From the NCBI RefSeq assembly GCF_000422725.1, contig NZ_KE383909.1, positions 853,178 through 917,177 on the forward strand: DNA of 64,000 nucleotides. Direction: 5' to 3'. The notes below the pieces were generated by a model. It did not search any database and was not told the DNA's origin. It saw nothing but the letters and a program-made list of their open reading frames with translations. Source of the DNA: Flavobacterium subsaxonicum WB 4.1-42 = DSM 21790 (GTDB lineage Bacteria > Bacteroidota > Bacteroidia > Flavobacteriales > Flavobacteriaceae). A program made the position numbers and the translations under genes. Positions 7,625-16,576 of the stretch are shown one piece after another (within the stretch, counting starts at the first letter, position 1; every line of letters starts with the position of its first letter).

Positions 7625-8377
7625 CTAATATTTACCGCTTAGTAACGCACCACCTATAGGCACTTTGGTATCGAGTCCTAATTTCTTAAGCATCTCATAA
7701 GTAGTGCAAACCGCCGCCGATGTTACCGGAATGCCAATCTCTCTCTCAATAGCGTCAATAGCCTCAAGCGAAGGCATTTGCACACAGGCAGATACCACCA
7801 AAACATCGGCACCTTCTAAATTAAGGCGTTTGTAAATATCCAGCAGGTTCATAGGGTTTTGTGCGGCAACTTCCAGGTTATCAGGAATTTCCAACGCAAT
7901 ATAATCTACAACCTCAAACCCCTGGTGCTGAATGTAATCTACCACCATTTCGGTTAATGGTTTCATATAAGGGGTAATAACCGCTACCTTTTTAGCGCCC
8001 AATACTTTAAGTCCGTTTATAAGCGCACCGGCACTGGTAACAATTGGTGTAGGATACCCGTTCTGGACCGTTTCATCGTGCAGGTTGGTTTCCGATACAC
8101 AATGATAGCCCCGTCCCATGCTCATTATGGCAACAAGGCAGGCGTAGCCCATAACATCTACCTGTGCATCAGATAGTTCCTGCGCACATTTAAGGCTCAT
8201 GGCATCCATAGCTTCGAGCTCTTCTTTGGTAACTTTTTTCATTCGCATACGGCTCGAATGAAAAGTAAAACGTTCTGGTGCAATGGTTTCACGAGAACGC
8301 AGCAACGCCGGAATCTCAGTTTCCATCGTTACGTTAGAACTGGGCACAATTTGCCCAATACGGTAAGTTTTCTTCAT
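7625..8377 (-). CDS. Maleate isomerase-like protein (Asp/Glu racemase superfamily)
   Basis: 250 residues, starting MKKTYRIGQIVPSSNVTMET, typical of maleate cis-trans isomerases and arylmalonate decarboxylase relatives. The two catalytic cysteines of the superfamily fit Cys80 (MGYACLVAIM) and Cys198 (VVSACVQMPSL), the positions and spacing expected for NicE-type maleate isomerase. It is the last gene of the aromatic operon, where conversion of maleate to fumarate would complete ring degradation; that context makes maleate isomerase much likelier than racemase. No cofactor site is visible. The following terminator closes the operon. Confidence 0.82.
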   Translation of the reverse strand: MKKTYRIGQIVPSSNVTMETEIPALLRSRETIAPERFTFHSSRMRMKKVTKEELEAMDAMSLKCAQELSDAQVDVMGYACLVAIMSMGRGYHCVSETNLHDETVQNGYPTPIVTSAGALINGLKVLGAKKVAVITPYMKPLTEMVVDYIQHQGFEVVDYIALEIPDNLEVAAQNPMNLLDIYKRLNLEGADVLVVSACVQMPSLEAIDAIEREIGIPVTSAAVCTTYEMLKKLGLDTKVPIGGALLSGKY

Positions 8378-8462: not shown

Positions 8463-9386
8463 TTAATTATTTAATGTTTCCGAATCTACAATGGTATTCC
8501 TCAGTGTACCAATACCTTCTACAGTGGCTTCTACCACATCGCCCGGCCACATAAATTCCTGTGGGCTGCGGCCTGCGCCAACACCGGCGGGGGTACCAGT
8601 AGCTATAATGTCGCCCACATCAAGGGTAAAAACAGTGCTTAGATCGTGTATCAGGTCGTTTATGTTAAAAAGCATGAATTTAGTATTCGAATTCTGCTTC
8701 TCGACACCATTTACTTTAAGCGAAAGATTTAGGTTATGCGGATCTGGAATATCATGCGTTGTAACCAATACCGGGCCCATAGGGGCAAACGTATCCTGCC
8801 CTTTAGAAACAATCCATTGCCCGGCACGGCGGCAGTCGCGCGCACTAATGTCATTAATTACAGTGTAGCCATACACATAATCCATGGCGTTTTCTTTGGG
8901 TACGTTTTTACCTCTTTTACCAATAATAACAGCAAGTTCTACTTCATAATCAAGCTGCTGGGTTATTTTTTGATTATGAATGATATCTGCCTCTGTACCA
9001 ATAACTGCCGAAGGTGGCTTTGAAAAAATTACGGGTTGCTGTGGCAAATCTTTAGAAGTATCGAGCGTTCTGGCCGATTCGGCTACGTGTTCTGTATAGT
9101 TAAGGCCAATACCAAAAATATTCTTACATGGTCTCGGTATCGGGGCCAGTAGCGTAGCATTGGCAAGGGGTATAGAGCATTCTTCCAATTGCTCAGCAGT
9201 TGCCGTATTTATCAGGTTAATGGCATGATTAATACCGTCGATACCTAAATCTATAAAATCCAGCATGTTATCGGGCAGTTGGCTGTCTTTAATCTGCCCC
9301 AGTTTCTCGGCATCGATAATCATATTTTCTTCTACAAAGCCAAGGCGTGCAGCGGTATGATTTATTTTATAAGTAACTAATTTCAT
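8463..9386 (-). CDS. Fumarylacetoacetate hydrolase-family protein (probable maleylpyruvate hydrolase)
   Basis: About 307 residues. The start is MKLVTYK at 9386; the longer frame upstream would run into the dioxygenase gene. The FAH metal motif DYEVELAVIIGKRG with its acidic residues is followed by DYVYGYTVINDISARDCRR and the C-terminal GDIIATGTPAGVG. FAH-family hydrolases cleave the C-C bond of acylpyruvates. Between a gentisate-type dioxygenase and a maleate isomerase the expected reaction is hydrolysis of maleylpyruvate (or its amide) to pyruvate plus maleate (or maleamate). No glutathione-dependent isomerase is present, so direct hydrolysis without isomerisation is implied. The exact substrate is inferred from context. 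Confidence 0.85.
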   Translation of the reverse strand: MKLVTYKINHTAARLGFVEENMIIDAEKLGQIKDSQLPDNMLDFIDLGIDGINHAINLINTATAEQLEECSIPLANATLLAPIPRPCKNIFGIGLNYTEHVAESARTLDTSKDLPQQPVIFSKPPSAVIGTEADIIHNQKITQQLDYEVELAVIIGKRGKNVPKENAMDYVYGYTVINDISARDCRRAGQWIVSKGQDTFAPMGPVLVTTHDIPDPHNLNLSLKVNGVEKQNSNTKFMLFNINDLIHDLSTVFTLDVGDIIATGTPAGVGAGRSPQEFMWPGDVVEATVEGIGTLRNTIVDSETLNN

Positions 9387-9411
9387 GTATGTTAAATAGT
9401 TTGTTGTTGGT

Positions 9412-10515
9412 TTATTTAATTTGCTGATAGCCGTCCGGATGTACTTTTTCCTGATACAATCCAAGCGATGTAATTACCGGCAGATCGTTAAACGAGAAAA
9501 GGCATGCATCCTCGGTATCGCTTAGGTTTACATGCTCGTGGTACGCCCATGACGGTACGCAGAAAATATCGCGCTCTTTCCAGTCGAAACGCTGGCCATC
9601 TATAATAGAGTAGCCTTTGCCCTTGGCACACTGGTACACAAAAGAACCTGTATGCTTATGGGCTTTAGTATGCTGTCCCGGCCTTAGCAGCTGCATGCTG
9701 GCACCCATAGTTTGCATTACATGGCCACCTGTAAGCGGGTTGGTGTAATGCATAAGCACACCATCATATTCTGACCCTTCGTTAACTTTTGCAGCCTCCA
9801 AAAGGGCAGGGTATACCTGTTTCCATGAATATTTAAAGAGAGGCGAGTAGGGTTTATTCCATTCGTTATCAGCGGGAATCAGTCCAGCACCACTATAACT
9901 TAGCGGAGAGTGGTTCAGTGGTTTTATTAAAGGTTGCTTGCCATCGTAAACTGCATAATCGTTAGCTTCCAAAGCATTTACAAGGGGTATATCCAACCCG
10001 TCCTGCCATATACAGGTTTTACCGCCTTCTTCTACACCGTGCTCGTGCCAGGTGCTGTTTGGGGTAATAACAAAATCGTTAACCTCCAGCATTATCTTGT
10101 TGCCATCTACTACAGTATAACCCAGTTCGCCCTCCATAATAAAGCGCAGGGCAGAAGCGCGGTGCCTGTGGGCAGATGTGCTCTCGCCCGGGCGGGTAAC
10201 CTGTATGCCGGTGTATAGCCAGCCCACGGCAGCACTAACATCGCGGCGTTTATCGTTAACAAGATAAACAACGCGCCTGCCGGCCTGCTCGGGTGTAACA
10301 AGGTCTGACGATTTTAGTACTAAACCACGCAGGTCTTCGTACCTCCAGAGCATGGGCACCGATGACGACCGGGGTTCCCAGGGCTCAATGTCGTTGGCTA
10401 CGGTCCATAAAGCGCCTGCACCAAGGTCTTTTAACTCTTTATAGTAAGCTTCCAGTTCTGGAGTGTCCTGAACGCGGGCACGGCCCAGAACGCTGTCATC
10501 ATGTTTTGTATCCAT
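9412..10515 (-). CDS. Gentisate 1,2-dioxygenase-like ring-cleaving bicupin
   Basis: Fe(II)-dependent extradiol-type dioxygenase of the bicupin family, 367 residues, normal length. The iron ligands fit His116 and His118 (SAHRHRASALRFIMEGE) and His157 (WHEHG); a second cupin follows around GQHTKAHKHTG and WAYHEH. Family members cleave gentisate between the carboxyl- and hydroxyl-bearing carbons; close relatives act on 5-nitrosalicylate, 5-aminosalicylate, salicylate or 5-hydroxyanthranilate, so the ring substrate is open. It starts at the ATG at 10515, 17 bp after the nitrilase-family gene, and its stop lies 25 bp before the hydrolase start. Its position after an aryl-CoA 5-hydroxylase and a thioesterase fits a 5-hydroxylated aryl acid as substrate. 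Confidence 0.87.
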   Translation of the reverse strand: MDTKHDDSVLGRARVQDTPELEAYYKELKDLGAGALWTVANDIEPWEPRSSSVPMLWRYEDLRGLVLKSSDLVTPEQAGRRVVYLVNDKRRDVSAAVGWLYTGIQVTRPGESTSAHRHRASALRFIMEGELGYTVVDGNKIMLEVNDFVITPNSTWHEHGVEEGGKTCIWQDGLDIPLVNALEANDYAVYDGKQPLIKPLNHSPLSYSGAGLIPADNEWNKPYSPLFKYSWKQVYPALLEAAKVNEGSEYDGVLMHYTNPLTGGHVMQTMGASMQLLRPGQHTKAHKHTGSFVYQCAKGKGYSIIDGQRFDWKERDIFCVPSWAYHEHVNLSDTEDACLFSFNDLPVITSLGLYQEKVHPDGYQQIK

Positions 10516-10532
10516 AATTGTGGCTATATATT

Positions 10533-11519
10533 TTAAAGTTTAGCAGCAAAATCATCACTGCCATCTGTAAACGTTATATTTTTTCTGGGCGATGTATTAA
10601 CCCTCAGATCAAAAATATCAAAGCGATTGTAATGCCCTAATATATCGTGCATTTGCTTGGGCTGTATGCATTTAGCAAGGTCGATATCGGCATACACTAT
10701 ACCTTCATCATCAATAAGCGGTTCGCCTATTACAGCTCCGTTAGGACCAATAATTCCTGAAAAGGCGCTGTTTTTGCGTGTAAGCAGCTCTTCGGCATTA
10801 GGCACGTCTTCTTTCATAATATCAATAATTTCTTTAGTGATAGTAGAACACGACACTATGGTAAACAGCTTACCCTCAAACGAATGTGCTGCTGCCCTTA
10901 TCTTAATAGCCTCTGCCATATTATAATCGGGTGGGGCAACGGGCAGGGAGATATAGTTGGCAATGTGAATCAGTTCTCCCTGAGAGAGTAACGTAAAACG
11001 CGCCAGTGTGTTAGTATTTTCGCCACAGGCTAAGGTACCTATCGGGCCAACCTCTGTATTATATACTTTTAGCGATGAGCCATCACCACCTGTCCAGGTT
11101 AACTTTTCGGCCCAGGTAGGCACTAATTTACGGTGCTTACCTATCAGGTTGCCCTTATTATCTATAATTAGGTTGGTGTTGTACAACTCGCCAAAACTCT
11201 GTCCGCGCTCGTTAACGCCTATAACTATATGGCAATTGTTTTCGCGGGCTGCCTGGCAGATTTTTTCGGTTTCAGGGCCGGGAACGGTAATCGAATTGCG
11301 ATACAATTTTTCGTACCACGGGCTACCCTGTACGGGTGTCATAATCCAGTTCCAGTAGGGGTAACCGGCAATAAAAACCTCCGGGAAAGCCACTAAAGAT
11401 GCGCCATTTGTAGCTGCTTCGGCAATTATAGCGCAGGCCTTATCTACCGTGGCGTCTACATTTAAAAATACCGGCGATGCTTGTACTGCTGCCGCTTTAA
11501 ATTTTGGTAAATCCAACAT
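10533..11519 (-). CDS. Nitrilase-superfamily carbon-nitrogen hydrolase
   Basis: 328 residues with the complete Glu-Lys-Cys triad: Glu47 (VAFPEVFIAGYP), Lys131 (GKHRKLVPT) and Cys165 (GTLACGENTN). The length and CGENTN context resemble nitrilases that hydrolyse organic nitriles to acids, but amidases share the triad. It sits inside the aromatic operon between thioesterase and dioxygenase. One role is to make the entry aromatic acid from a nitrile. Another, if anthranilate is degraded, is to hydrolyse the amide produced by ring cleavage of 5-hydroxyanthranilate. Sequence alone does not choose. No signal peptide, so cytoplasmic. Confidence 0.85.
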   Translation of the reverse strand: MLDLPKFKAAAVQASPVFLNVDATVDKACAIIAEAATNGASLVAFPEVFIAGYPYWNWIMTPVQGSPWYEKLYRNSITVPGPETEKICQAARENNCHIVIGVNERGQSFGELYNTNLIIDNKGNLIGKHRKLVPTWAEKLTWTGGDGSSLKVYNTEVGPIGTLACGENTNTLARFTLLSQGELIHIANYISLPVAPPDYNMAEAIKIRAAAHSFEGKLFTIVSCSTITKEIIDIMKEDVPNAEELLTRKNSAFSGIIGPNGAVIGEPLIDDEGIVYADIDLAKCIQPKQMHDILGHYNRFDIFDLRVNTSPRKNITFTDGSDDFAAKL

Positions 11520-11605: not shown

Positions 11606-12028
11606 TTATATTACATACTTCTCTAAAATAGTCCGCATTGCAGGCGGAAAGGCACTTGCCTTAATTTCCTTTCTGTCGTTTAAAAAATCAACGCGAACCA
11701 GTGTTACTTCGCCTTCTAGGCAAACAGAACCGTCAGGGTATTCGAATTTAAATCCGCAAACCATCGATGCGCTACCAAGAGTGTTAATCCACAGGTATTT
11801 GGTAAGCTCATCGCCCAGGCGTGCCGCTTTTTTAAATTGTATTTTAAGGTCTACCGTGGGTATACCGCCGGTTTCGTGCAGGTTTTTAAACGGCATGTTC
11901 AGTGCTTCTTCATAAAAATCTTCTACCAGGCAGTTAAGCATTTCCAAAAAACGGGGATAGAAAACTATACCCGCATAGTCTACATGCTGAAAACGTACTT
12001 TTTCTTTTTTTATAAATGCATTCTCCAT
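11606..12028 (-). CDS. Hot-dog acyl-CoA thioesterase (4-hydroxybenzoyl-CoA thioesterase family)
   Basis: 140 residues. The N-terminal HVDYAGIVFYPRFLEML carries the catalytic aspartate (Asp17) of the Pseudomonas-type 4-hydroxybenzoyl-CoA thioesterase. Its start codon overlaps the CoA ligase stop by one base (TAATG arrangement), so the two are translationally coupled. In the pathway it would release a 5-hydroxylated aryl acid (gentisate or 5-hydroxyanthranilate) from CoA before ring cleavage; that step is inferred from order and family. An 86-bp gap separates its stop from the nitrilase-family start. Confidence 0.85.
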   Translation of the reverse strand: MENAFIKKEKVRFQHVDYAGIVFYPRFLEMLNCLVEDFYEEALNMPFKNLHETGGIPTVDLKIQFKKAARLGDELTKYLWINTLGSASMVCGFKFEYPDGSVCLEGEVTLVRVDFLNDRKEIKASAFPPAMRTILEKYVI

Positions 12029-13644
12029 TAGGCTTGTACTATATTTTTTAATTTAAAACGTTGAATTTTACCTGTTTCTGTTTTTGGAAGGGCATCAAGG
12101 TATTTAATTTCGCGAGGGTATTTATAAGGTGCTGCCACCTCTTTAAACCAATCCTGAAGCGATTTGGTAAACTCCGGACAGGCTTTGTTTTTATCTTTTA
12201 ATACCAGGTACGCGCACACCAGCATGCCACGGTTTTCATCAGGCAGGCCTACAACAGCGCACTCGGCAACATCAGTATGGGTCAGTAACACGCTCTCCAC
12301 CTCAATAGCGGCAATATTATAGCCCGATGAAATTATCATATCATCACCACGCGCCACAAACCAAAAGTAGCCATCAGCATCCCTGCGAAAAATATCTCCG
12401 GTAATATTCCAGCCTTGCTGTACGTATTCTTTCTGTTTGTCTTTGCTGTTTAGGTATTTGCAGCCAGTAATGCCCCGAACGGCCAGCCTGCCTGCGGTGC
12501 CATCGGGTACTTCGTTGCCTTTTTTATCTACAATTTTTGCTTCGTAGCCACGTATTGGCAAACCGGTGGCACCTTTACGCATATTATCTTCGGTAGACGA
12601 AATAAATATATGAAGTATTTCGGTCGACCCGATGCCGTCAATTATCTTTAAGCCAGTGGCTTCGTACCAGTCTTCCCAGACCTTTACAGGAAGGGTTTCT
12701 CCGGCTGAAATGCATTTGCGAAGGGAGGATATATCAAACTCATTTACTTTAGTTGTAAGCACCCGCCATGCTGTAGGGGCTGTAAAGCATATACTTATCT
12801 TGTATTCTTCAATTGCCTTAAGCAACAGTTCCGGTGATGGTTTTTCGATCAGGAAAGTGGATGCCCCGTAGTAAAATGGGAACAGCACCATACCGCCTAA
12901 ACCGAAGGTAAAACCGAGTGGCGGACTGCCTGTAAATACATCGTTAGGTGTTGGCTGCAAAGAATATTTTGGGAACGCCTCACATATCAATAAAATATCT
13001 TTATGATAGTGTGCTGTCATTTTAGGCTTACCGGTTGTACCCGATGTAAACCCTATAATAGCAATTGAATTGGCAAGAGTATGATAATTTTTAAACACTT
13101 TTGGCTTGTTGCCCATTAACGTTTCCAATTTAGATACTCCTGATCCTGATCCATCATAAGTTATAACGTGCTTAAGGTAAGGCGACGTAACCAATAGCAT
13201 TTCTTCTTCGAGCCTGTAATCGCAAAAAACATGCGATATTTGGGCGCTTTCTATCATTACGGTCAATTCTTTTTCACGAAGCAGGGGCATGGTAGCCACA
13301 ACAATACCTCCGGCCTTTAAAATGCCGAACCAACATGCTACATACATAGGGTTGTTGGCCGAGCGGATAAGCACCCTGTTGCCGGGCACAAAATCTAAAT
13401 TTTCCACTAAAGTGTGGGCTATTTGGTTGGCTTTTTGGTAAAGGTCGTTAAACGTCCAGGTTTCGGTAAATGTCCTGATAGCAACACTGTCGCCGCGACC
13501 TTCTTTAATATGGTCGTCCAACAATTTATCTACACAATTAAGCGCGCCATCAAACTCAAAATCAGGATGCCCCGTAAAGCATTCAGCCTGTAAAGACGGA
13601 TGTGGTAAATGGTCGTGTGCAAAATTATCGTCGTAATGTTTCAT
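12028..13644 (-). CDS. Aryl-CoA ligase (2-aminobenzoate/benzoate-CoA ligase family)
   Basis: AMP-forming ligase of 538 residues. The phosphate-binding loop FTSGTTGKPK is at residues 199-208, the A5-type motif is IDGIGSTEILHIF, A8 is GDDMIISSGYNI, and the catalytic lysine fits Lys526 in PKTETGKIQRF. The start LPHPSLQAECFTG and the absence of a membrane segment resemble 2-aminobenzoate-CoA ligases and other benzoate-CoA ligase family members. It is followed directly by the thioesterase and preceded by the aryl-CoA hydroxylase, so activation, hydroxylation and release are encoded together. Anthranilate or salicylate is the probable substrate; benzoate itself would not suit the hydroxylase next to it. 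Confidence 0.87.
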   Translation of the reverse strand: MKHYDDNFAHDHLPHPSLQAECFTGHPDFEFDGALNCVDKLLDDHIKEGRGDSVAIRTFTETWTFNDLYQKANQIAHTLVENLDFVPGNRVLIRSANNPMYVACWFGILKAGGIVVATMPLLREKELTVMIESAQISHVFCDYRLEEEMLLVTSPYLKHVITYDGSGSGVSKLETLMGNKPKVFKNYHTLANSIAIIGFTSGTTGKPKMTAHYHKDILLICEAFPKYSLQPTPNDVFTGSPPLGFTFGLGGMVLFPFYYGASTFLIEKPSPELLLKAIEEYKISICFTAPTAWRVLTTKVNEFDISSLRKCISAGETLPVKVWEDWYEATGLKIIDGIGSTEILHIFISSTEDNMRKGATGLPIRGYEAKIVDKKGNEVPDGTAGRLAVRGITGCKYLNSKDKQKEYVQQGWNITGDIFRRDADGYFWFVARGDDMIISSGYNIAAIEVESVLLTHTDVAECAVVGLPDENRGMLVCAYLVLKDKNKACPEFTKSLQDWFKEVAAPYKYPREIKYLDALPKTETGKIQRFKLKNIVQA

Positions 13645-13658
13645 TGCCCTAATGCGTA

Positions 13659-15959
13659 TTACTTTTTATGCGTTACCGGTTTTAATGCTTTTTTCATACC
13701 TTCCATAGCTTTGCGCTGCCCGCCTATGTACGGATACAAGTGTGATACCGCCGATGTGTAGGGTTTTGGTATGCCCAACGAATCAAGATTTTGGGCGTTG
13801 TATTGCTCGTAAGCCTGAGCGTTTCTTACAAACGCAGGGTCTAATAATAAAGTTTTGCCCAAGGCTACCAGATCGGCTCGGCCGTTGAGTAATATGGTAT
13901 TAATCTGGTCGATATCCTGAATGTAGCCTGCCGTTATGGTAGGTATGTGAACGGTATTTCGCACCATATCGCTAAATGGTGTTTGCCACATCCTGCCTAC
14001 ATGGGGTTTTTGATTTTCTACCGTTAACCCTGTAGAAACATTTATAATATCGGCTCCGGCTTGTTTAAAAGCTTCGGCTATGTTAAGTACATCATTGTCG
14101 GTTATGCCATTTTCTGCCCAGTCCGATGCTGATATACGCACACTCATTGGTTTTTCCTGCGGAAATACGCCACGCATGGCTTTAAATACCCTTATGGGGA
14201 ATTTTAGCCTGTTTTTTATGCTTCCGCCAAATTCATCTGTACGGATGTTGGTAAGCGGGGAGAGGAACGATGCCAGTAAAAATCCATGGTGCGCCTGTAA
14301 TTCAATCATATCAAATCCGGCATCGTGGGCATTTTTAGTGGCTTTTTCAAATTGCGATGTTATCATATCCATATCTTCCAAAGTCATTTCTTTGGGAATA
14401 CCCATTTTAGAATTGAACGGGAGGGGAGATGCCGACAGCAGCGGCCAGGCATTTTCTATAGGGGTATTGCTGCTTTGCCAGGGCAATTGTACAGCACCCT
14501 TTCGGCCGGAATGCCCTATCTGCAATCCTATTTTTGAAGTGCTGTTTGCATGTATAAATTCAGTTATTCGTTTCCAGGCAATAACCTGATCTTTAGACCA
14601 TATACCCGGGCAGCCTAAAGTTATTCTGCCTGTAGGCGATATAGCGGTGGCTTCGGTTAAAATTAACCCGATGCCGTTTGTAGCACGAGAGCCATAATGC
14701 ATAAGGTGCCAATCGGTAACCACAGCATCCTGAGCCGAATATTGCTCCATGGGGCTCATAACTATGCGGTTATCAACGGTCATTTCCCGTAAGGTAAACG
14801 GTGTAAATGCCGGTGACGTTGTGGTGCCAATCTGATTAAATCCTGCAACTACTTTTTTGGTAAACGATGGGTCGCGAAGGGCAAGGTTCTCTAACGTTAC
14901 TTTTTTAGAACGCGTCATTACACTAAAAGCAAACGCCATAAAATCGTGCTGAATATGCCTATCCATGTGCTCAAACCATTCGCGTGATACATTGGCGGCG
15001 TGTTGTATCATTTCTACGCGGTTGCGGCGCAGTTTTTCGTAATTGTCAAAAACAGCTTTAGTGTCAGTTTGGTATTTTATAACCGAATCGGCCAGTGCAA
15101 TAGCACATTCCATAGCCAATTTTGTACCCGAACCGATGGAGTAGTGGGCGGTAGCCTTGGCATCGCCTAACAATACTATATTATCTTTATGCCAGGTTTT
15201 ATTGGTTATGGTAGGAAACTGCCTCCAGTGCGAACGGTTAGAAATCAGGCCATGTCCATCAAGCTCCTCTTTAAAAATTTCAGATAATTTTTGGATGGTA
15301 TCCTGCTCATCAGTAGTGCTAAATCCTGCTTTATGCCAGGTCTCATCGGTAGTTTCAAATATCCAGGTACTCATGCCTTTTTCGTACTGATAGCTATGTG
15401 CTACGAAAGTTCCAAAAGGGGTAGTCCTGAAAAAGTAGGTAAACGAATCCAACGGCCTGGTAGACCCCAACCATACAAAGCGGTTGCTTTGCAGTTGTAT
15501 ATTTGTACCAAAATCTGATGCGAATTTATCGCGCATGCTGCTGTTTATACCGTCGGCAGCCACTATAATATCTGAGTCGCTAAACTGGCTCAGATCGCCT
15601 ACATTGGCTTCAAAATTAAGTTCGACACCTTCTTCGCGACAGCGCTGTTGTAGTAACTGTAGCAATGTTTTTCTGGAACAACCACAAAATCCGTTGCCTG
15701 AAATCCGGACAACTTCTCCATCCCGCGCCACATCCAGTTCATCCCAATAGGCAAACTTGGTCCTTATTAAATCATAAGATTCAGGGTCGCGACTTAAAAA
15801 TTCCGATAAGGTTTCATCAGAAAAAACCACTCCAAAACCAAAGGAGTCATCGGCTTTATTGCGCTCGTAAACTGCTACATTACAATCAGGCATTGCCTTT
15901 TTTAAAAGGATGGAGAAATACAAACCTCCCGGGCCGCCGCCTATTACTGTTACTTTCAT
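13659..15959 (-). CDS. Bifunctional aryl-CoA 5-hydroxylase / old-yellow-enzyme oxidoreductase
   Basis: 766-residue fusion. Residues 1-380 form a class A FAD monooxygenase: GGGPGGLYF at 7-15, and the second FAD motif GDAKATAHYSIGSGTKLAME near 270. Residues from about 390 to the end form an old-yellow-enzyme barrel: FTPFTLREMTVDNRIVMSPM, then QAHHGFLLASFLSPLTN with the HH substrate-binding pair, and GRADLVALGKTLLLDP at the FMN phosphate site. The same architecture and length are known for 2-aminobenzoyl-CoA monooxygenase/reductase and for proteins named salicylyl-CoA 5-hydroxylase. Both halves look intact. Which substrate is used, and whether the second half reduces the ring here, is unresolved. 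Fourteen bp separate it from the ligase gene. Confidence 0.88.
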   Translation of the reverse strand: MKVTVIGGGPGGLYFSILLKKAMPDCNVAVYERNKADDSFGFGVVFSDETLSEFLSRDPESYDLIRTKFAYWDELDVARDGEVVRISGNGFCGCSRKTLLQLLQQRCREEGVELNFEANVGDLSQFSDSDIIVAADGINSSMRDKFASDFGTNIQLQSNRFVWLGSTRPLDSFTYFFRTTPFGTFVAHSYQYEKGMSTWIFETTDETWHKAGFSTTDEQDTIQKLSEIFKEELDGHGLISNRSHWRQFPTITNKTWHKDNIVLLGDAKATAHYSIGSGTKLAMECAIALADSVIKYQTDTKAVFDNYEKLRRNRVEMIQHAANVSREWFEHMDRHIQHDFMAFAFSVMTRSKKVTLENLALRDPSFTKKVVAGFNQIGTTTSPAFTPFTLREMTVDNRIVMSPMEQYSAQDAVVTDWHLMHYGSRATNGIGLILTEATAISPTGRITLGCPGIWSKDQVIAWKRITEFIHANSTSKIGLQIGHSGRKGAVQLPWQSSNTPIENAWPLLSASPLPFNSKMGIPKEMTLEDMDMITSQFEKATKNAHDAGFDMIELQAHHGFLLASFLSPLTNIRTDEFGGSIKNRLKFPIRVFKAMRGVFPQEKPMSVRISASDWAENGITDNDVLNIAEAFKQAGADIINVSTGLTVENQKPHVGRMWQTPFSDMVRNTVHIPTITAGYIQDIDQINTILLNGRADLVALGKTLLLDPAFVRNAQAYEQYNAQNLDSLGIPKPYTSAVSHLYPYIGGQRKAMEGMKKALKPVTHKK

Positions 15960-15964
15960 TTATA

Positions 15965-16576
15965 TTATATAAAAGGTCTTTTGATTGAAAAAATTTCTCC
16001 CAATTTGGCGTAGTTATTACCCGCCAAACGTGCCATAGGCTTATAGGTTTTAAGATTTATGTAGCTATTATCCAGCAATATATCATCGCTTAAATGGAAC
16101 ATAACGATCCTGCCAATAATTATGGTAGCGCCGCCATCTTTATGATCTTCAAGGTTGTAATGATGTACCATTTCGCATTCAAAATGTACAGGACTTTCTT
16201 TTACCCTGAAGGGCTTAACTAAAACAGATAGTATTGCCGTAAGCCCGGCATAGTCAAATTCATTACCGTCAGGAGGGAGGTTTACTGATGTTGCATTCAT
16301 AGCATCAACCAGTTCCTCAGTAGCAAGATTAACCACAAACTGCCCATTTGCCAATACATTATTTAAGGTGTCTTTATTTTTGTTGCCCGTTCTTACAGTA
16401 GAGAACATTACATGGGGCGGGTCTTCGCCAACTGCATTAAAAAAAGAGAATGGGGCCAGGTTTGGCACACCGGTATTGCTGATAGTAGATATCCAGCCAA
16501 TAGGCCGTGGTATAACCGTACCGGTTAAAATTTTGTAAATATCTTTCTGGCTGGTAACCTTTGGGTCAATTTGCAT
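15965..16576 (-). CDS. Flavin reductase-domain protein, first gene of the aromatic operon
   Basis: 203 residues of the FMN-binding split-barrel flavin reductase family: GTVIPRPIGWISTISNTG near residue 22, then NLAPFSFFNAVGEDPPHVMFS and the flavin-contacting KDTLNNVLANGQFVVNLA. Five bp before the bifunctional hydroxylase, so co-transcribed. The hydroxylase half of that protein should use NAD(P)H itself, so a separate flavin reductase is unexpected; it may instead be an FMN-containing enzyme of unknown role. The start is the ATG at 16576. Upstream lies a 365-bp AT-rich gap without a regulator gene and without an exact TAnnTTTG on this strand close to the start. Confidence 0.82.
   Translation of the reverse strand: MQIDPKVTSQKDIYKILTGTVIPRPIGWISTISNTGVPNLAPFSFFNAVGEDPPHVMFSTVRTGNKNKDTLNNVLANGQFVVNLATEELVDAMNATSVNLPPDGNEFDYAGLTAILSVLVKPFRVKESPVHFECEMVHHYNLEDHKDGGATIIIGRIVMFHLSDDILLDNSYINLKTYKPMARLAGNNYAKLGEIFSIKRPFI

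Follow-up and report, generated by a model that had tools for sequence, protein, structure and literature searches.

The operon and its products

The window analysed here, a stretch of 64,000 nucleotides from Flavobacterium subsaxonicum, holds eight tightly packed genes on one strand in the order FLR-HYD-LIG-THIO-NIT-GDO-FAH-MALI (Table 1), with intergenic distances of -53 to 86 bp. The fifth gene, NIT, encodes 328 residues from an ATG start codon and was found at exactly the coordinates given in the initial annotation, which also placed it within an operon and adjoining the dioxygenase; indeed it lies 86 bp past the thioesterase gene and 17 bp ahead of GDO.

Table 1. Genes and residues of the operon, with positions in the window
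Feature	Position	Strand	Description
FLR	15965-16576	minus	Resembles flavin reductases (PF01613, 84.9 bits); opens the operon
HYD	13659-15959	minus	Fusion of a flavin monooxygenase with an OYE domain; proposed 2-aminobenzoyl-CoA 5-hydroxylase
HYD Gln555 codon	14295-14297	minus	Gln at the position of the first HxxH His; proposed switch stopping ring reduction
LIG	12028-13644	minus	Aryl-CoA ligase; proposed anthranilate-CoA ligase
THIO	11606-12028	minus	Acyl-CoA thioesterase of the hotdog fold; proposed to release 5-hydroxyanthranilate
NIT	10533-11519	minus	Member of the nitrilase superfamily; proposed amidase for maleamate (or maleamylpyruvate); Glu47, Lys131, Glu138, Cys165
GDO	9412-10515	minus	Bicupin dioxygenase that cleaves the ring, of the GDOsp type (PDB 3bu7); proposed 5-hydroxyanthranilate 1,2-dioxygenase
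FAH	8463-9464	minus	Fumarylacetoacetate-hydrolase-family C-C hydrolase; likelier start is the ATG at 9386
MALI	7625-8377	minus	Maleate cis-trans isomerase; best PDB match 4fq7 (344 bits); Cys80 and Cys198

Pfam scans of the eight products bear out the earlier claim that NIT is the only operon enzyme with a C-N hydrolase site, since no such match was obtained for the remaining seven, and no deaminase was recognised among the eight in profile scans. Maleate isomerases employ two catalytic cysteines, and Cys80 and Cys198 of MALI both align to 4fq7. HYD combines PF01494 with PF00724 and thereby has the monooxygenase-OYE fusion of 2-aminobenzoyl-CoA monooxygenase/reductase. GDO carries metal motifs in both cupin halves (AHRH 115/HEH 157 and AHKH 285/HEH 326, aligned to 3bu7), as expected of the GDOsp type, for which the available text of PMC10306065 describes two iron centres.

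The initial annotation had likened the ligase and the hydroxylase to 2-aminobenzoyl-CoA enzymes, and both likenesses were recovered. The best PDB match of LIG is the anthranilate-CoA ligase 4wv3 (297 bits, against 233 for the best benzoate-CoA ligase), and LIG furthermore shares 46-49% identity with three ligases encoded close to HYDs that have beta-oxidation neighbours, of which the Thalassospira ligase (49%) adjoins kynU and kynA; in Ensifer, kynU is found about 5 kb from HYD. The nearest model to HYD is PRK08255 (964 bits, below its cut-off of 1078), named by NCBI 'bifunctional salicylyl-CoA 5-hydroxylase/oxidoreductase'. We provisionally take the operon substrate to be ANTHRANILATE, not salicylate. 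The genome of the window encodes a kynureninase and a 3-hydroxyanthranilate dioxygenase above the respective cut-offs, and its match to tryptophan 2,3-dioxygenase is far below (105.6 against 390.7 bits). Kynureninase was also tried as a phylogenetic profile and set aside, since 130 of the 149 family genomes have a match to it and it is thus non-discriminating, showing only that anthranilate can be made.

The nitrilase-superfamily protein

The sole Pfam domain of NIT is PF00795 (146.3 bits against a cut-off of 23.2), which places it in the nitrilase superfamily, and the residues named in the initial annotation, Glu47, Lys131 and Cys165, which we take to be the Glu-Lys-Cys triad of that superfamily, are all present and unchanged in all 36 aligned homologues from Flavobacterium, as is Glu138. 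The maleamate amidase of Pseudomonas putida S16 is presumably an isochorismatase-family enzyme, whereas NIT is a nitrilase-superfamily protein, and PF00795 alone was found where a NicF-type maleamate amidase would have an isochorismatase-family fold. A structure prediction from 36 Flavobacterium rows was set aside, as it reached a mean pLDDT of 63.5, with low confidence directly past Cys165.

The closest relatives of NIT speak for a different function, namely that of a true nitrilase at the entrance of the pathway, which would convert an aromatic nitrile to anthranilate or a related acid and leave the rest as a salicylate- or anthranilate-type pathway. Among 18 PDB sequences of solved structures, the best 13 matches to NIT are those of nitrilases, cyanide (di)hydratases or NIT4, as expected of a branch-1 nitrilase and counting against an amidase. 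In addition, its best NCBIfam match is the Nit6803 nitrilase model TIGR04048, which describes one subfamily, although at 245 bits the match stays below the cut-off of 502.6. Relatives of NIT likewise occur outside cassettes of the kind described below, in Polaromonas (56%) and Salinigranum (51%), which also counts against an amidase. The signature CGENTN was considered as a marker of cassette membership and dropped, since it is also present in the proteins of Polaromonas and Salinigranum, which belong to no cassette.

Conservation and co-occurrence

A scan of genome contigs returned at least 566 relatives, from which 80 loci were kept, nearly all titled Flavobacterium or its family. The order of those genes that are present is identical in 80 of 80, and all eight are visible in 66. 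In the remaining 14 the operon is truncated by contig ends, with the exception of L082 from F. piscinae, where other genes follow NIT (9923 onward) and GDO, FAH and MALI are absent from the following 10 kb; this locus counts against an amidase function.

Since the 80 loci were picked via NIT, the reverse comparison, in which HYD, NIT and GDO are counted across genomes, matters. Among 199 Flavobacterium genomes NIT is found in 88, GDO in 87, HYD in 89 and all three in 84, and among the 167 that are at least 90% complete and at most 5% contaminated the three genes occur all-or-none, each in 72. The mismatches (G233, G248, G251, G263, G284, G303, G307 and G343) are all in genomes less than 90% complete. 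In a sample of the family (149 genomes, 148 genera) a NIT orthologue and GDO are found in the same two genomes, and nine further genomes encode a nitrilase of 35-45% identity without GDO. In a sample of the phylum (345 genomes) NIT is found in six and HYD in seven, the seventh HYD genome (G673) having beta-oxidation-type neighbours and a His residue in the OYE domain. An optional entry enzyme would be expected to be lost at times, and the fact that every one of the 72 good genomes that have HYD and GDO has kept NIT is thus in poor agreement with a nitrilase acting on an entrance nitrile.

Two genes inserted in Flavobacterium operons were scanned, one with a glutamate-synthase domain and one encoding an AHSA1-type protein. 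The glutamate-synthase-domain gene forms a cluster of 22 loci (including L014, L016 and L018, with PF01645 in L018), mostly inserted between LIG and THIO, and visual inspection of the listed cluster representatives of these insertions revealed no kynurenine-pathway gene. It should also be mentioned that a Flavobacterium-like operon is found in metagenome bins titled Bifidobacterium breve, Spirosoma fluviale and Sphingobacterium thalpophilum (L015, L023 and L068), the titles or binning of which are probably wrong.

The cassette on plasmids and its entry modules

Plasmid-borne NIT proteins of 64-69% identity accompanied by GDO, FAH and MALI were found in nine records. Ruegeria, Sulfitobacter, Sagittula, Embleya, two Leisingera plasmids and one of two Shinella replicons share the order NIT-GDO-FAH-MALI. 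The second Shinella replicon (L085) has GDO-FAH-NIT-MALI, and Caballeronia has HYD-GDO-FAH-NIT-MALI. In five loci (L083, L084, L089, L091 and L092) genes resembling the alpha and beta subunits of indolepyruvate-ferredoxin oxidoreductase (IorAB), together with a thioesterase gene, are located beside the cassette. Such genes are labelled IadA/IadB in known auxin-degradation (iad) loci (PMC9613470), and iad pathways with such genes are reported, in the available text of these papers, to reach anthranilic acid (PMC9613470, PMC12633357). IorAB would here convert isatinate to 2-aminobenzoyl-CoA, which would then be hydroxylated by HYD. HYD and IorA are found together in L084 and L110. The anthranilate-type LIG and the loci with HYD and IorA suggest that the entry modules carry nitrogen; in our reading the ring nitrogen would still be present in the IorAB loci, in which no ring-cleavage gene other than NIT encodes a C-N hydrolase.

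L110, from another genus of the family of the window (G135), combines HYD with IorA and a cyclase-family gene in the neighbourhood of FLR-MALI-FAH-GDO-NIT, and is possibly an isatinate or auxin degradation locus in Bacteroidota. L083, L089, L091 and L092 have no HYD on the fetched stretch beside NIT-GDO-FAH-MALI, IorAB and thioesterase. Near L083 and L089 an aminotransferase and an aldehyde dehydrogenase hint at 5-hydroxyindole or amine substrates. One guess, which these two genes would fit, is that some NIT cassettes without a Gln-type HYD begin from already hydroxylated 5-hydroxyindoles. A flavin-reductase-like gene recurs beside GDO-FAH in L094-L099, of which L094-L096 are without HYD on the fetched stretch.

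A Gln-type HYD was found on none of five replicons searched (Ruegeria, Shinella, Embleya, Sulfitobacter and Sagittula). One Ruegeria and one Shinella replicon have as their only HYD one of the His type, far from the cassette, and no HYD of any kind was found on three further replicons searched, both of which count against an amidase. A nitrilase of the entrance is made rather improbable by the facts that NIT remains with GDO, FAH and MALI while the entry module switches from LIG to IorAB, and that it is placed between FAH and MALI in Caballeronia and in Shinella L085.

Replacement by a second nitrilase

A plasmid search started from GDO gave 17 records with a GDOsp-type enzyme (at least 57% identity), of which 16 were examined and one (H72) was left out. 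Nine of the 16 cassettes contain NIT, five a second nitrilase (CN2) and two none. CN2, which is 33-36% identical to NIT, is carried by Aminobacter, Tistrella and three Novosphingobium, lying in Tistrella about 6 kb off, beyond a transporter. The two CN2 proteins scanned have the Nit6803 model as their best match as well, again below the cut-off, and this is in favour of an entrance nitrilase and counts against an amidase. The two cassettes without a nitrilase likewise count against it: Sulfitobacter alexandrii has GDO-FAH-FLR with no nitrilase within 21 kb, and Cupriavidus has THIO-HYD-GDO-FAH near IS elements with no nitrilase.

For comparison, five ordinary GDO loci (37-42% identical) were picked by us from 40 listed rows. 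In four of the five no nitrilase was found within 13 kb of GDO, and in the fifth, Sagittula P11, one is located about 4 kb away on the opposite strand, adjoining genes of a Nit1C-like cluster. By distance alone (6 kb for the ordinary loci), a nitrilase is near GDO in 14 of 16 GDOsp-type loci against one of five ordinary loci (Fisher p 0.011).

These loci also bear on a gentisate route, in which the nitrogen would be lost ahead of ring cleavage (or the substrate would be salicylate), GDO would cut gentisate and NIT would be otherwise employed. Such a route draws on the NCBI name of the HYD model, on the report that Nocardia opaca turns 5-hydroxyanthranilate into gentisate (in the available text of PMC4539516), on the 62% identity of GDO to its R. 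pomeroyi counterpart, and on the best solved relative of GDO, 3bu7, which was deposited as a gentisate 1,2-dioxygenase, the latter counting against an amidase function of NIT. We nonetheless find it unlikely, since the operon has no recognised deaminase and an anthranilate-type LIG, since NIT is as conserved as GDO and would be without a role, and since none of the five ordinary GDO loci has a nitrilase in its own operon. The GDOsp-type dioxygenase gene of the R. pomeroyi plasmid (L083, 13045-14169), the product of which is probably the protein of 3bu7, itself sits in a NIT cassette, and the natural substrate of that enzyme may thus not be gentisate.

A His/Gln change in the OYE half of the hydroxylase

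In YqjM-type OYEs the two histidines of an HxxH motif bind the substrate. The pair is not intact in HYD, where Gln555 replaces the first His. Among 87 HYDs classed from fetched loci, Gln is found in all 78 with GDO at the same locus, 71 of which are from the 80 loci of the NIT scan. Two more Gln-type HYDs are without GDO on the locus, that of L082 and that of L113, the genome of which has GDO on another contig. The remaining seven all have His and all lack GDO; enoyl-CoA hydratase and acyl-CoA dehydrogenase genes are both present in five of these loci, L117 has the hydratase only, and L101 has neither on the fetched stretch. With the two His-type HYDs of the Ruegeria and Shinella replicons, which are distant from the NIT cassette and beside tryptophan dioxygenase or beta-oxidation genes, His is found in nine of nine HYDs without a linked GDO. 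The loci named for the Gln/His pattern are the window, L084, L093, L097-L099, L110 and L114. A tree of 20 HYDs calls for three Gln/His changes, of which well-supported branches force at least two.

The pairing of the Gln with linkage to GDO suggests that ring reduction is switched off and 5-hydroxyanthranilate is made, and the substitution may keep the product of HYD aromatic for THIO and GDO. The classical enzyme is itself reported, in the available text of PMC3534580, to give 5-hydroxyanthraniloyl-CoA under limiting NADH.

Proposed route

From the enzyme families and the catalytic residues we infer the following route, in which each substrate is a prediction. Anthranilate, probably derived from tryptophan via kynureninase, would be converted to anthraniloyl-CoA by LIG and hydroxylated at C5 by the monooxygenase half of HYD, the OYE half of which, with Gln555 for His, would leave the ring unreduced and the product aromatic. 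THIO would release free 5-hydroxyanthranilate, in which GDO would cleave the C1-C2 bond such that the amino-bearing carbon becomes a carboxamide (maleamylpyruvate). FAH would split this into pyruvate and maleamate, NIT would hydrolyse the maleamate amide by means of Cys165, Lys131, Glu47 and Glu138, giving ammonia and maleate, and MALI would convert maleate to fumarate. The closest solved relative of MALI is the maleate isomerase of P. putida S16, which according to the available text of PMC3812094 acts after a maleamate amidase, and this argues for an amidase here too.

We consider it fairly probable that NIT is the amidase of such an operon, leading from anthranilate via 5-hydroxyanthranilate and maleamate to fumarate. 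This function, first put forward in the initial annotation, gains support at the level of sequence from the co-occurrence of the genes, the cassette behind different entry modules, the replacement by another nitrilase and the OYE change, all of which a nitrile entry would leave without explanation.

The amidase may alternatively precede FAH and act on maleamylpyruvate, or on a lactam derived from it, to give maleylpyruvate. In the Flavobacterium operon NIT is placed ahead of GDO and FAH, and no sequence evidence excludes this order, but we find it doubtful, since GDO-FAH-NIT-MALI in Caballeronia and Shinella L085 and GDO-FAH-CN2 in Aminobacter fit a step after FAH, gene order being weak evidence. 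The first two cassettes slightly favour FAH acting before NIT, which is plausible and which we hold to be somewhat the likelier order.

More broadly, a true-nitrilase lineage may have become an amidase, with a second lineage recruited elsewhere and the loss of the OYE His as the switch, serving the breakdown of tryptophan, auxin and perhaps 5-hydroxyindoles (serotonin-type) in Bacteroidota, Proteobacteria and Actinomycetota, and to this wider picture we would give even chances.

Comparison with known systems

The enzyme families and the single reactions are known, and their combination, an amidase role of NIT and the Gln/His marker were not found among the open-access papers listed in literature searches, nor was a description of a nitrilase-type maleamate amidase or of an operon from FLR to MALI. 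To our knowledge the 5-hydroxyanthranilate route is known only from old enzymology. If the proposal is true, it supplies genes for this route, reveals steps below anthranilate in some auxin-degradation loci, extends the functions of true nitrilases to hydrolysing an amide within a carbon pathway, and provides a single-residue marker that separates ring-reducing from ring-cleavage versions of the hydroxylase.

NIT has its family, the Glu-Lys-Cys residues and its overall length in common with branch-1 nitrilases (PDB 6zby, 8uxu and 3wuy), but differs from these in operon context, and the residue after the Cys is Gly166 in NIT, whereas it is Trp in 14 of 16 comparison nitrilases. GDOsp (3bu7) of Silicibacter (Ruegeria) pomeroyi and GDO of the window share the metal motifs of both cupin halves, and the plasmid copy in R. 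pomeroyi is 62% identical to GDO, but GDOsp was deposited as a gentisate dioxygenase, whereas the substrate proposed for GDO is 5-hydroxyanthranilate. The 2-aminobenzoyl-CoA monooxygenase/reductase route of Azoarcus evansii, as far as the available text of PMC4539516 describes it, likewise has a CoA ligase and a monooxygenase-OYE fusion of the same family, but there the ring is reduced and beta-oxidation follows, whereas the window has Gln for the OYE His together with GDO, FAH, NIT and MALI. The degradation of indole-3-acetic acid by iad loci (PMC9613470, PMC12633357) is linked to the present cassette by the IorA/IorB-like genes that adjoin NIT-GDO-FAH-MALI in the five plasmid loci; the iad papers searched contain neither the word 'nitrilase' nor the word 'gentisate', and the pathway is followed in the available text as far as anthranilic acid, whereas the NIT cassette would act below anthranilate. 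Finally, the nicotine degradation of P. putida S16 (ami and iso; available text of PMC3812094) proceeds from maleamate via maleate to fumarate just as proposed here, with an isomerase to which MALI is close.
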